From contig NZ_JAILWF010000004.1 in the NCBI RefSeq assembly GCF_025699065.1, positions 1-64,000 of the forward strand: 64,000 nucleotides of DNA. The letters are read 5' to 3'. The notes beneath the pieces are model-generated. The model was not told where the DNA came from and did not search any database. It saw only the letters and a list, made by a program, of their open reading frames with translations. Both the position numbers and the translations under genes were made by a program. Positions 20,317 to 25,265 of the stretch are shown here, one piece after another. This stretch comes from Nitrosarchaeum sp. Lineage in GTDB: Archaea; Thermoproteota; Nitrososphaeria; Nitrososphaerales; Nitrosopumilaceae. Position 1 is the stretch's first letter; the number at the start of each line of letters is the position of its first letter.

Positions 20317-22965
20317 CTACCCTGATGTACAACCGCTGTATCCGCATTCAATGCAAATACTACATCCTTCTACAAATACAAGGTTGTTTTTGCATGTTGG
20401 ACATAAACGATCTTCTGATACTTCTTGTCTAGTAGGTTCAGATGTTATTTCTTCATCATGTACTTTGAGTTCAAGTGAATCATGTACATGTGATTTGATG
20501 TATGGATTTGATATCATGGTTGTTACATATTTAGTAACATGTTCACTTGGTGTAACATCAAATACTTTTTCTGCGTTTTCACTTGTCATGTGAAGTACTT
20601 GTTTGTGTCTTGAACCATCACGGTACACTGTAATTCCCTTTAGACCCAATTCATGAGCCAATAGATATGCAGACTTTACATCTTCTGCTGTAACATCATA
20701 TGGCATGTTAATTGTCTTGGCAATTGCATTTCCAATCCAATCTTGCCATACTCCTTGGGCCATTAGATGATCTGCCCAGTGAATATCCATTGCAGTTACA
20801 TAGACGTCTTGCATCCATTGTGGAATTTCAGGAATTCCTTTTAGTGAGCCATAGTTGTCTGCAATCTTTGCAAGGAGTTCATCGCTGTATAGACCATGTT
20901 CTTTGAGTACTTGTTCAACAATTTTGTTGGTGTAAAAGAATCGACCTACTGTTACTCTCTTCTCAAAGACTAGAGCAAATGCTGGCTCCATTCCGTTTGA
21001 ACAATCTGCAATCATAGATAGTGTTCCTGTTGGAGCTACTGTAGTAGTCAAAACATTTCTTATTCCATGTTTCTTGATCTTATCAATTAGTGCATCCCAT
21101 TCATAACAGTGAGACTCTTTTGGTTTCTCATAATATCCTGCAATTGGAATCTTTCCTTCAGGATATTCTGTTTTTGAGCATAGTGGGAATTCACCTCTAG
21201 ATTTTGCTAGTGCTACACTTTCTTCCATTGAATAATAAGTCAATGCTTCAGATAGTTTTGATTGTAGATCGTATCCTTCTTTGGAGTTGTATGGAATCTT
21301 TAATTTGTATAATAGATCTGCTACTCCCATTACACCTAATCCAATTCTTCTAGAATCTTTTGATGCAATATCAATTTCTTTTACAGGATAGTGATTTACA
21401 TCAATGATGTTATCTAAGAATCTGGTAGTCTTTCTGATTGTTTCTTCATATCTTTGCCAATCAAATTCGTATTCTCCATCAGCTTTTCTCTTTACGAGAT
21501 TTACCAAGTTGATAGAACCAAGATTACATGATTCGTACGGATAAAGACTTTGTTCACCACATGGATTTGTAGCTCTTAGTGGAGCTTGTCTTGCTTTGGC
21601 AAATACATTGTATTTGTTAATTTGATCAAAGAAGATCAATCCAGGCTCTGCACTCTTCCATGCAGAAAGAGCTATCAAGTCAATTAATTGATGTGCATTG
21701 ATTTCTTTTACTGGTTTTCTGTCACGTGGACTACGTAACATGTATTTTCCATCAGTTGTATTTACAAGTGCATTCCAAAAGTCTTCCCAAATACCTACAC
21801 TGACATTAAAGTTCTCCAAAACACCAGGTTCTGTTTTATTTGTGATAAATTTTTCAACATCTGGATGCCAAGCTTCAATGATTCCCATGTTAGCTCCTCT
21901 TCTTTTACCTCCTTGTTTTACAACTTCAGTCACGGTATTGATGATATTCATAAAAGAGACAGGACCTGATGCTACACCTGATGTTGATGCAACAATATCG
22001 CCTTCTTCACGAAGATCAGAATAGTTGATTCCAACTCCGCCTCCAGATTTGAATATTAGTGCTGCATCAGAAGTTGATTTCATGATTTTCTCCATGTCAT
22101 CTGGCATTCCAAGAACAAAACATGCTGAAAGCTGACCAAGTCTACCACCAGCATTCATCATTGTTGGTGAATTTGGCAGAAAGTCTTGTGCTGTCATCAA
22201 TTCAAAATATTCTGTGATTTTGTCTGCGTAACTATCTAATTCTTTTGCTGCAAGTAGAGTTAGAAGATCTTTAAAGCTTACTTTCATCTGACCTTTACTT
22301 GCAAGAGTCACATAATGATTGATCAGGGATCTAAAGTGCCACTTGTTGAGAAAATATTCTCCAATTTTGAATTTGTAATCAAAATTATCTAATTTCTCAA
22401 GATATGTGCGTGCTTCTTCAATATCTTGGGTAATATTTCCAGTTTTTTCAAACACTTTTGAATCATATAGGACATCACCTATTCCAACAAGAATTGCAAC
22501 TCTTTCAAACATTTGAGTTGGTGATTCAATGATTTCATTTTTGTTGTTTCTGAAAAGATATCTAGATGCCAATACTCTCAAGCAATTTAGATCAAAATTC
22601 TTGGAAACAGGATCTAAAGATTTTAGGTTTAAGACTTTCATTTTTTCGTCCCTTAATTTTCTTCGTTCATGTCTGTAAACGATGTATGCTTTTGCAATGT
22701 CGCTATTTCCACAATCGATAAGAGTTGACTCTACAATGTCTTGAATATCCTCAACGCTAGGAGCTCTAGAATTTGTGAACCCCTGTTCGACTAATTTTTG
22801 TACAACTTTATTTGCAAGTTGATCGGCTAGCGCACGGTCGGCTTTAGAGGTGGCTGCCAACGCTTTGTATATAGCGTTTGAAATTTTATTTTGATTGAAG
22901 GCCGTTATAGCGCCACTGCGCTTACGGATCTCATTGATAGTACTTTCTATTTGTGATTTATCCAA
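20317..22965 (-). CDS. nrdJ: Adenosylcobalamin-dependent (class II) ribonucleotide reductase
   Basis: An 882-residue class II RNR making dNTPs with vitamin B12. It has an N-terminal ATP-cone (~5-100; KRSGAITAFNQNKISNAIYKAL), LSACFVLGMPDD with an active-site Cys, NPCGEQ with the radical Cys, the VAPTGTLSMIADCSNGMEPAFAL loop, and a C-terminal cysteine-rich tail (CPTCKNN...CSICIECGYSGC). The start is TTG 22965 with a strong Shine-Dalgarno. A regulator-like NrdD paralog lies directly upstream. Confidence 0.97.
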   Translation of the reverse strand: MDKSQIESTINEIRKRSGAITAFNQNKISNAIYKALAATSKADRALADQLANKVVQKLVEQGFTNSRAPSVEDIQDIVESTLIDCGNSDIAKAYIVYRHERRKLRDEKMKVLNLKSLDPVSKNFDLNCLRVLASRYLFRNNKNEIIESPTQMFERVAILVGIGDVLYDSKVFEKTGNITQDIEEARTYLEKLDNFDYKFKIGEYFLNKWHFRSLINHYVTLASKGQMKVSFKDLLTLLAAKELDSYADKITEYFELMTAQDFLPNSPTMMNAGGRLGQLSACFVLGMPDDMEKIMKSTSDAALIFKSGGGVGINYSDLREEGDIVASTSGVASGPVSFMNIINTVTEVVKQGGKRRGANMGIIEAWHPDVEKFITNKTEPGVLENFNVSVGIWEDFWNALVNTTDGKYMLRSPRDRKPVKEINAHQLIDLIALSAWKSAEPGLIFFDQINKYNVFAKARQAPLRATNPCGEQSLYPYESCNLGSINLVNLVKRKADGEYEFDWQRYEETIRKTTRFLDNIIDVNHYPVKEIDIASKDSRRIGLGVMGVADLLYKLKIPYNSKEGYDLQSKLSEALTYYSMEESVALAKSRGEFPLCSKTEYPEGKIPIAGYYEKPKESHCYEWDALIDKIKKHGIRNVLTTTVAPTGTLSMIADCSNGMEPAFALVFEKRVTVGRFFYTNKIVEQVLKEHGLYSDELLAKIADNYGSLKGIPEIPQWMQDVYVTAMDIHWADHLMAQGVWQDWIGNAIAKTINMPYDVTAEDVKSAYLLAHELGLKGITVYRDGSRHKQVLHMTSENAEKVFDVTPSEHVTKYVTTMISNPYIKSHVHDSLELKVHDEEITSEPTRQEVSEDRLCPTCKNNLVFVEGCSICIECGYSGCTSG

Positions 22966-22972
22966 TTATAAT

Positions 22973-22978
22973 CTCCCC
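22973..22978 (-). promoter_or_regulatory. Shine-Dalgarno deciding the TTG start of nrdJ
   Basis: The minus strand reads GGGGAG seven bases before TTG 22965. The gene therefore has a leader. A TATA-like TTTATAC at about 23003-23009 fits a short leader of roughly a dozen bases. Confidence 0.65.
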
Positions 22979-23068
22979 GCAAGAGGTAAGAAATATGATG
23001 GTATAAATGATTTGGCAGTTTTTTCTAAAAATTCGGTGGAAAAATATTGACAACGGTCCAATCGATAT

Positions 23069-23083
23069 CATAATGGTATTATG
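23069..23083. promoter_or_regulatory. Inverted repeat upstream of nrdJ (candidate operator)
   Basis: CATAATGGTATTATG has perfect 6-bp arms around a 3-bp centre, about 105 bp before the nrdJ start. A second short hairpin, CGCTT-atgta-AAGCG, lies at 23111-23125. These are the only clear symmetries in the 206-bp gap between the NrdD-like gene and nrdJ. Confidence 0.4.
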
Positions 23084-23171
23084 AATTTAGTAACAAGTCA
23101 CAACGATGATCGCTTATGTAAAGCGTCACATTTTTTTAAGATGATCGGAACTAGTTTTAGACTTACGAATT

Positions 23172-25265
23172 TCAGATGACATATGAAGACTTGCACTTTG
23201 GACATTTGTCAACAAAGGGTTCATCTTTGAATCCACATTCACCACAGAGTGATACTTTTTTCACAGGCTTAAAGGAAGATGTAAGCTCTGCTGCTTTCTC
23301 AATTGATTTTTTAATATCAGCTTGAGTAGCATTCTGATCAATGTCTAGTTTAACTAGTAAACCACCATTAAGCAATTTAGATAGTCTAGTACATTCTGTG
23401 ATAATTTCACTCTTGGTTGTATAATCAGATATCTCAGATGCTTTTAACACTATTCCTTGTGAATAAGAGTCACTATCCATAGAGTTTAGTGCAGAATTTT
23501 TACCATATTTTTCACCATCTAGGTTTGCAAATCGGCTAGATCCTTCTGTTTCAATCATGGATATCGCTACAGTATCACCGAGTTCCTTACCTTTCTTAGT
23601 AGCAACATCAACTGCAGTTTCTATTACTTTATTGAGTACGTCTCTTCCTTCTTTATTATCTTGGAAACCAAGTATATTGAAGACCGATTCTTTCAAACCT
23701 ACTAGATTAACAATTAAAGATACAGAACTTCTTTGCATGTATTGAGTATTTTTTGCAAGTATTGGATTTAATCCTCTTCGTGTAAGATCAGAGATGTCTT
23801 TCTTTCTTAATGCCATAGAAGATAATGCAGGTTTCATTAGCAATGCGAGTCTTGCTCTAAAGTATGTTTCATCTTTGTTGGATTCAAATGCAAGTCTTGG
23901 AAGATTGATCGATACAGATTGTAGTGTAATTGCAAGTGGACCAGAATTTTTAGTTGTGCCATTTGTAATACCATAACTTGATACTTCACCTTTTGCAAAC
24001 ATGACTTTGCCGCCAATCGCAATAATTTCAGATAATGCATCAGAGACATCAGAGATTTTTCCTTTATCGAAATCAACAATTAAACCAATTTTTGGAATTG
24101 GAGTTATCTTTGTGTAATTCTTGTAAGCATTAATGATTGCATTAACAATTTTTAGATCAGAACCTAATTGAAGTCTAATTGAAACATCAGTGCTTTTTCT
24201 ATTATACTTTGATGTAGTAGAAGCAGTAGAAAATGCATCTGTCAGTTTTTGTTCTAACTCTGGAATGTTCTTTGCATGTTTTGTAAATAATGGAATTAAT
24301 CCATCAAGAACAATTTCTTGTGAAGCTTCTTTGGAAAGTAATGAAATGATAATAGATAAAGAAGATGTGACATCATCTAGTGTTTTTGATGATGTAATTC
24401 TTGACACATCAAGATATTTTCCGCCAAGAATAACTCCGTCTTCAATCAATTCTTTTACATTAACAAATATTGTATCAGGTATCATTGACCATATTCCAGG
24501 ATTTGAAATATGCATATCACCAGAAAGATGGGAATCTGCAACATCTTTTGGTAATACATTTGTGAGTAAGTGTTCTGCAAATACTTTTTGACCCGTATTG
24601 AAAAGTAAGCCCTCTGCGCCATTATCTACATTGTCTAGATTTGTAAGCATCTCTTGAACGTCGTATACAGGCAGGCCTAGGCGTGCCAGTTTGTTGCGGT
24701 ATTCTTCATGACCATGCTCTAAAAGGACCGAATTTACCATTTCTCGAATAAGAGATCCTGTAAGATAGGTTGTCTGATATTTGTAAATTCTATTTTCAAC
24801 TTCTTCAGTAATTTTTTGGGCTAACTCTAGTGGTAAGCTGCCTTCGCGTACAAGTGATTGAATAATTTTATGAGAATTAAATTCTTCAATTGATTCATGA
24901 GATGTTCTGACATACATCTTACCACTTTCAATAATTGAACGTTCTTCAATTTGTCTTGCTAAGCTTAAGACCAATTTTCCAAGATTTGTAATGGTATAAC
25001 GTCTTTCAGATTTATTTAGTGCTACAAGTGATTGTCTCAATAATTTTCTTAAATGGTATGCAAATTTTCCACTCTCTTTTTTAGATTTGAATCCAGCCAG
25101 TGACTTTAATTCAGAATAAGTCAGAGGGCCCTTTGAATTTAAGATTCTTAAAATATCGATTCTGTTAGGACTTGCCATTACAGAAAAGATCATCCTTACA
25201 CGTTTTGACGTGGATTGAAGAATTCCGCTTCGCTTTGGCTCTTCTAGCTCTTCATCCAATTCCAT
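23172..25265 (-). CDS. Winged-helix / ATP-cone / NrdD-like protein without catalytic residues (putative dNTP-sensing regulator)
   Basis: A 697-residue protein. Residues ~20-105 are an ArsR-type winged helix (IFSVMASPNRIDILRILNSKGPLTYSELKSLAG). Residues ~118-205 are an ATP-cone. Residues ~215-600 follow the class III RNR (NrdD) core: VSINLPRLAFES, LVGLKESVFNILGF and ETEGSSRFANLDGEKYG. The end is a zinc ribbon (Cys674, Cys677, Cys688, Cys691) that stops six residues after the last Cys, so the glycyl-radical GY motif is missing. The only other Cys is one near residue 630, so the thiyl-radical and reductant cysteines of NrdD are gone. It cannot be a standard reductase. A nucleotide-sensing repressor or activator of nrdJ is the best inference. 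Confidence 0.85.
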   Translation of the reverse strand: MELDEELEEPKRSGILQSTSKRVRMIFSVMASPNRIDILRILNSKGPLTYSELKSLAGFKSKKESGKFAYHLRKLLRQSLVALNKSERRYTITNLGKLVLSLARQIEERSIIESGKMYVRTSHESIEEFNSHKIIQSLVREGSLPLELAQKITEEVENRIYKYQTTYLTGSLIREMVNSVLLEHGHEEYRNKLARLGLPVYDVQEMLTNLDNVDNGAEGLLFNTGQKVFAEHLLTNVLPKDVADSHLSGDMHISNPGIWSMIPDTIFVNVKELIEDGVILGGKYLDVSRITSSKTLDDVTSSLSIIISLLSKEASQEIVLDGLIPLFTKHAKNIPELEQKLTDAFSTASTTSKYNRKSTDVSIRLQLGSDLKIVNAIINAYKNYTKITPIPKIGLIVDFDKGKISDVSDALSEIIAIGGKVMFAKGEVSSYGITNGTTKNSGPLAITLQSVSINLPRLAFESNKDETYFRARLALLMKPALSSMALRKKDISDLTRRGLNPILAKNTQYMQRSSVSLIVNLVGLKESVFNILGFQDNKEGRDVLNKVIETAVDVATKKGKELGDTVAISMIETEGSSRFANLDGEKYGKNSALNSMDSDSYSQGIVLKASEISDYTTKSEIITECTRLSKLLNGGLLVKLDIDQNATQADIKKSIEKAAELTSSFKPVKKVSLCGECGFKDEPFVDKCPKCKSSYVI

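Follow-up and report, generated by a model that had tools for sequence, protein, structure and literature searches.

The window is the 64,000-nucleotide stretch of Nitrosarchaeum sp. DNA analyzed here. Its minus strand carries a gene for a 697-residue protein that combines an ArsR-type winged helix, an ATP-cone and a catalytically dead class III ribonucleotide reductase (RNR) core, referred to below as dead NrdD. The gene is followed, 206 bp downstream and on the same strand, by nrdJ (Table 1), an arrangement that agrees with the placement directly upstream of a working nrdJ in a preliminary description made from the sequence alone. NrdJ is the sole RNR found in the 99.7%-complete genome, and its own ATP-cone has an intact KRSG motif. 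The nrdJ gene appears to have its own TATA-like box inside the 206-bp gap. The small zinc-ribbon ORF on the other side of the dead NrdD gene begins MSVEITCGKCGEKI and is present throughout the Nitrosopumilaceae loci compared; a link to the dead gene is unproven.

Table 1. Coordinates of the dead NrdD gene, its domains and neighbors in the window, and of a gene present in some related loci
Feature	Position	Strand	Basis or remark
Dead NrdD with winged helix, 697 aa, ATG start	23172..25265	-	ORF, Pfam and 159 homologs
ArsR-type winged helix, residues 24-107	24945..25196	-	Pfam, HlyU/ArsR profile match, fold match
ATP-cone, residues 115-205	24651..24923	-	Pfam, fold match to NrdA cone and NrdR
Catalytically dead class III RNR barrel core (residues 212-669)	23259..24632	-	AlphaFold2 model compared with 1h7b; residue losses
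C-terminal zinc ribbon (C674, C677, C688, C691); subsequent glycyl-radical loop missing	23193..23246	-	Sequence
Intergenic region, candidate operator region; TATA-like box at about 23000-23012	22966..23171	-	Promoter role inferred
TATGATATCGATT, degenerate counterpart of the dyad TATGAANTTCATA	23060..23072	-	Weak, not conserved in this genome
nrdJ, AdoCbl-dependent class II RNR, 882 aa, own ATP-cone	20317..22965	-	Only RNR found in genome
Small zinc-ribbon ORF, 53 aa	25418..25579	-	Just upstream; conserved in Nitrosopumilaceae
Glutaredoxin/NrdH-like gene	L043:3733-4059; L045:3727-4050; also L100, L101, L103, L117

Domain architecture and predicted fold

Pfam assigns a winged helix to residues 26-100 (DUF7347, 2.7e-10; HTH_20, 6.2e-8; both over the cut-off) and an ATP-cone to residues 117-189 (3.2e-8), and matches the protein to NRDD at 2.7e-25. 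The NrdD equivalog model TIGR02487 gives 80 bits, far under its cut-off of 326.35. A full-length AlphaFold2 model (57 sequences, pLDDT 82.6, pTM 0.69) superimposes on T4 NrdD (1h7b) with Z 30.7 and 2.8 Å over 443 residues and similarly on other NrdDs, and the comparison with 1h7b shows a ten-stranded NrdD-type RNR barrel in the model. The winged helix and cone (residues 1-215) were modeled separately. The winged helix of this model resembles those of the ArsR/MarR/HxlR proteins with Z scores up to 12.7, and the cone aligns with the P. aeruginosa NrdA cone (Z 12.3, 1.4 Å, 82 residues) and with S. coelicolor NrdR (7p37; Z 11.9, 2.0 Å, 82 residues).

The winged helix is linked by profile to HlyU and other ArsR proteins, and profile and fold together identify it as an ArsR-type domain that matches both the ArsR/SmtB/HlyU group and DUF7347. 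Members of this group are small stand-alone dimers, many of them metal or redox sensors, whereas the domain in dead NrdD is a fusion head. Pfam and the predicted structure agree on the winged helix, cone and class III core that had been read from the sequence, encoded on the minus strand. Dead NrdD has the barrel fold, the cone and the C-terminal zinc ribbon in common with the NrdDs of T4, T. maritima, P. copri and S. thermophilus, but it carries the additional winged helix and lacks the glycyl radical, the reductant Cys, the NxN flap, the TPAE loop and, in the window protein, the thiyl Cys.

Loss of catalytic residues and selection on the domains

The first Cys of the window protein is C625, and the chain stops six residues past the zinc-ribbon C691, as expected from the earlier reading that no Cys precedes about residue 630. 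The position of the reductant Cys, which NrdD has on the first strand of the barrel, is occupied by T265, the finger-loop CC (MCCR/MGCR in NrdD) is replaced by G432/I433, and the NxN flap and the TPAE loop are lost. A glycyl-radical motif was sought in all frames after the end of the gene and in the rest of the window, and none was found. The predicted absence of thiyl Cys, reductant Cys and glycyl radical is thereby borne out. Neither a PF01228 glycyl-radical domain nor a real NrdD was found in the 99.7%-complete genome.

These losses are shared by a large set of relatives. The comparison set consists of 159 distinct winged-helix proteins and 21 real NrdDs without a winged helix, most of them from the same loci; the order and family names of the relatives' genomes were inferred from their kin. 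The glycyl-radical motif (RVxGY) occurs in 0/159 winged-helix members and in 21/21 real NrdDs, and the same counts hold for the reductant Cys and for the Glu and Asn residues of the NxN substrate flap. The TPAE (phosphate) loop is mostly lost across the winged-helix members, and the thiyl Cys is kept in 21 of the 159. Other parts of the core remain: the N, P and R of NLPR, G523, E526, D583, Y601 and the zinc-ribbon Cys residues are retained in 93-99% of the members and the L of NLPR in 87%. The recurrence of one architecture with the same losses in 159 distinct homologs is more than chance. Dead and real NrdD proteins are split by a single branch (SH-aLRT 99) of an unrooted tree. The preliminary description would have been contradicted by homologs with intact sites or by a separate gene supplying the glycyl-radical domain; there are none of the former among the 159 winged-helix members, and none of the latter was found in the genome.

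One of the 21 real NrdD genes, beside the dead gene in locus L049 (7889-9931 and after), is frameshifted, and its tail MTRVTGFF lies in another frame. The frameshift is either a sequencing error or real, and this NrdD is counted among those with the glycyl-radical motif, which lies behind the frameshift.

Compared with five relatives, the window gene as a whole has a dN/dS of 0.045-0.10; these ratios are approximate because several of the dS estimates approach or exceed 1. These values indicate that the gene is not a decaying pseudogene. The domain ratios for the same five relatives, likewise approximate, are 0.000-0.018 for the winged helix, 0.012-0.019 for the cone and 0.065-0.14 for the core. 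Identity to a member from another family of the order (L034) follows the same gradient, with 98% in the winged helix, 74% in the cone and 37% in the core. As judged from these sequence comparisons, the putative DNA-binding head is the part most guarded by selection in Nitrososphaerales. For the Bathyarchaeota the cone (71%) is slightly ahead of the winged helix (66%), and the core (45%) is again last.

The nucleotide in S. coelicolor NrdR is contacted by K50, R51, E56 and K62, and mutation of V48 also impairs binding (PMC9110341). The window cone keeps V119, E127 and K133, and the equivalents of K50 and R51 are T121 and S122. Thr-Ser replaces the Lys-Arg pair in more than 90% of the members, which weighs against a regulatory role modeled on NrdR, and the NrdR model does not recognize dead NrdD. 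Type B NrdDs with intact catalytic residues share the VRTS cone, so the Thr-Ser variant is no proof of lost nucleotide binding.

Distribution and linkage to RNR genes

Relatives were found at 537 loci when about 85,000 species genomes were scanned, and the best 80 of the 537 are nearly all named Bathyarchaeota. Matches occur in 212 of 300 sampled genomes of the phylum, although some of the weaker ones are short or align to ordinary RNRs. The weak matches in families f5, f29 and f14 were rejected as full members on these grounds, and those in f31 are divergent members of about 590 residues. Viral contigs were also scanned; they contained no relative, and viral carriage was rejected. Six loci (L050, L052, L064, L065, L066, L068) have shorter dead members, 545-706 residues as called, that lack the zinc ribbon and adjoin NAC/HflX/MBF1 genes, with a divergent pyrB in four.

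In Nitrososphaerales, 39 of 40 loci have nrdJ as the next gene after the dead gene, both in the same orientation. The exception is a short contig with a divergent copy (L039). This contig, from the Nitrosopumilaceae genome G075, encodes a dead protein of about 43-45% identity without a zinc ribbon, and nrdJ is on another contig. The arrangement is the same in the Bathyarchaeota-like loci that have an RNR gene, 19 of them with a real nrdD and one (L078) with nrdJ. In the fetched loci, any RNR gene at a distance of up to about 6 kb is on the same strand and immediately downstream; none was found upstream of the dead gene or on the opposite strand. Most fetched Bathyarchaeota loci have no adjacent RNR gene and many face pyrB, which weighs against a role in RNR regulation. 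On the tree, the dead gene switches between linked and unlinked at least nine times, with gains indistinguishable from losses. The protein is not a thaumarchaeal specialty: it is widespread in Bathyarchaeota, where the downstream RNR, if present, is usually a real nrdD and many genomes have none adjacent.

Several loci share a framework in which the dead gene is followed by an RNR gene and then by a convergent pyrB. The slot between them is occupied by NrdDs of three or more lineages, by nrdJ in Nitrososphaerales, and elsewhere it is empty. The dead proteins of L043 and L079 are 95.5% identical, whereas the adjoining NrdDs are 25.7% identical, sit on distant branches and belong to different NrdD lineages. 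The flanking genes of the two loci match as well, with 86% identity for the upstream gene and 87.5% for pyrB, both measured through shared references. The enzyme has been swapped in place and the dead gene retained. A linkage that outlasts exchange of the enzyme is not explained by an inherited tandem duplication, though duplication could account for linkage alone.

A small glutaredoxin/NrdH-like gene (Table 1) lies between the dead gene and nrdD of one lineage only and is absent beside the other nrdD types.

The NrdR model TIGR00244 passed its cut-off in only one sampled family (f4, 22 genomes), and no NrdR was found with it in the window's genome. Genomes of f4, which is Bathyarchaeota-like (for example G297 and G001; loci L075 and L076), encode a bacterial-type NrdR directly before nrdD, with the gene for dead NrdD in a different part of the genome. 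Mutual exclusion of the two proteins was considered and rejected, since f4 has both.

Proposed function and candidate operator

The reading we favor, with a probability of about 0.62, is that dead NrdD is a pseudoenzyme that controls RNR supply at the level of transcription, similar to NrdR in its working but different in its build. This reading is strengthened by a winged helix that is extremely conserved and by the loci with exchanged enzymes. Chances are about even for the broader proposal of an undescribed, large archaeal transcription-factor family made from a whole dead RNR, a separately invented counterpart of NrdR that stays in place while the RNR gene, class II or one of several class III types, is exchanged.

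The cone of NrdR steers DNA binding through the oligomer state (PMC9110341, PMC12176259). A comparable sequence of events can be proposed for dead NrdD. An ancestral archaeal NrdD copy would have acquired an N-terminal ArsR-type winged helix and lost its glycyl-radical tail, reductant Cys, substrate flap and phosphate loop. The RNR barrel would most likely serve as a homodimer platform that spaces two winged helices, and the cone between helix and barrel would most likely read ATP/dATP or another nucleotide. The winged helices would occupy an operator close to the RNR promoter, and the state of the cone would alter the orientation or the oligomer of these DNA-binding heads. Transcription of the next RNR gene downstream, which is nrdJ in the window and nrdD in Bathyarchaeota, would in this way be tuned to the dNTP level at its promoter. 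By analogy with NrdR, the effect would be repression. The preliminary description had a whole dead RNR act as the sensor. Its idea of a regulator derived from a dead RNR gains from the conserved winged helix and the enzyme-swap loci, but sensing by the whole RNR is weakened. With neither the substrate flap nor the TPAE loop left, it is more likely that the cone is the sensor and the core a dimer platform; a cone without the Lys-Arg pair also cuts against a whole-RNR sensor.

NrdR and dead NrdD share an ATP-cone of the same fold. Genes for NrdR often neighbor those for RNR. NrdR matches RNR expression to nucleotides, which is also what is proposed for dead NrdD. They differ in the DNA-binding part, which is an N-terminal Zn-ribbon in NrdR and would be the winged helix in dead NrdD, and in size: NrdR has about 150 residues, and dead NrdD, with 697, includes a whole dead RNR barrel. 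PurR of Bacillus carries a winged helix on an inactive phosphoribosyltransferase domain and reads a metabolite of the pathway it controls. Likened by description, it too is a DNA-binding head on a dead enzyme-like domain, although the enzyme, the fold and the pathway are others. Dead NrdD is best filed as an RNR-derived addition to this known class of enzyme-derived transcription factors. If the proposal is true, we know of no earlier case in which an entire RNR has been turned into a transcription factor. A search of the open-access literature, whose coverage leaves out most subscription papers and preprints, found no description of a winged-helix dead NrdD, and neither a winged helix nor an inactive member comes up in a paper about insertions and extensions across the RNR family.

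It is unlikely that dead NrdD is a transcription regulator with a more general role in nucleotide metabolism or in the state of DNA replication, acting on the pyrimidine pathway or replication genes with RNR as one target or none. The many genomes without an RNR gene beside the dead gene fit such a role, as do the proximity of pyrB in 63 of 119 non-Nitrososphaerales members and the retention of the dead gene in genomes that have a true NrdR. However, pyrB is convergent in 59 of the 63 and so has no promoter region in common with the dead gene, and RNR genes recur downstream in differing arrangements.

It is quite improbable that dead NrdD is instead a pseudoenzyme subunit that binds a working RNR and modulates how it acts or assembles, with the winged helix as an assembly module or a secondary trait. 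Active enzymes are commonly regulated by dead paralogs, the core fold is retained, and a heterodimer with the neighboring real NrdD is conceivable in Bathyarchaeota. In Nitrosopumilaceae, however, no real NrdD was found and the neighbor is the class II NrdJ, a distant homolog; elsewhere the neighbor has been exchanged for very different enzymes. A partner-binding core also predicts the reverse of the Nitrososphaerales pattern, in which the winged helix is most constrained and the core least.

It is highly improbable that dead NrdD regulates nothing but its own gene, or that it is a functionless remnant simply linked to RNR: descent from a tandem nrdD duplication could have left the linkage as an inheritance, but the dN/dS is low, the gene is retained in most sampled genomes, and the linkage survives exchange of the enzyme itself. 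An active but unusual RNR that draws on a different radical source, or on a glycyl-radical domain supplied in trans, is scarcely credible. The thiyl-position Cys of 21 members is set against the lack of the reductant Cys and flap residues in all 159, a phosphate loop that is mostly gone, a first Cys at C625 in the window protein, and no Gly_radical domain or real NrdD found in its genome.

NrdR is rare in archaea (PMC9110341), which leaves largely open how archaea set their dNTP supply. Dead NrdD is a concrete candidate for a regulator of RNR supply, present in the majority of the genomes sampled from a large archaeal group that includes ammonia oxidizers, and the question becomes testable with one protein and one promoter. 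The exchange of the slot occupant would be an unusually clear genomic sign of a regulator outliving the adjoining enzyme.

The nrdJ leaders of Nitrosopumilaceae contain a candidate binding site. Of 33 leaders, 17 have an exact copy of the 13-bp dyad TATGAANTTCATA and 20 have it with at most one mismatch, compared with 0 exact occurrences in 1650 shuffled leaders. The copies (leaders L006-L031) lie at a near-constant place and vary in the center base, and searches of individual genomes gave between zero and three occurrences each. At this place the window's species carries just the degenerate TATGATATCGATT, and the dyad is missing from several genera despite a nearly identical winged helix. It was rejected as a universal operator for these two reasons and is a candidate operator only; it may instead be the site of another protein. 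A second, loose dyad, GTCAA-N-TTGA, was spotted by eye.
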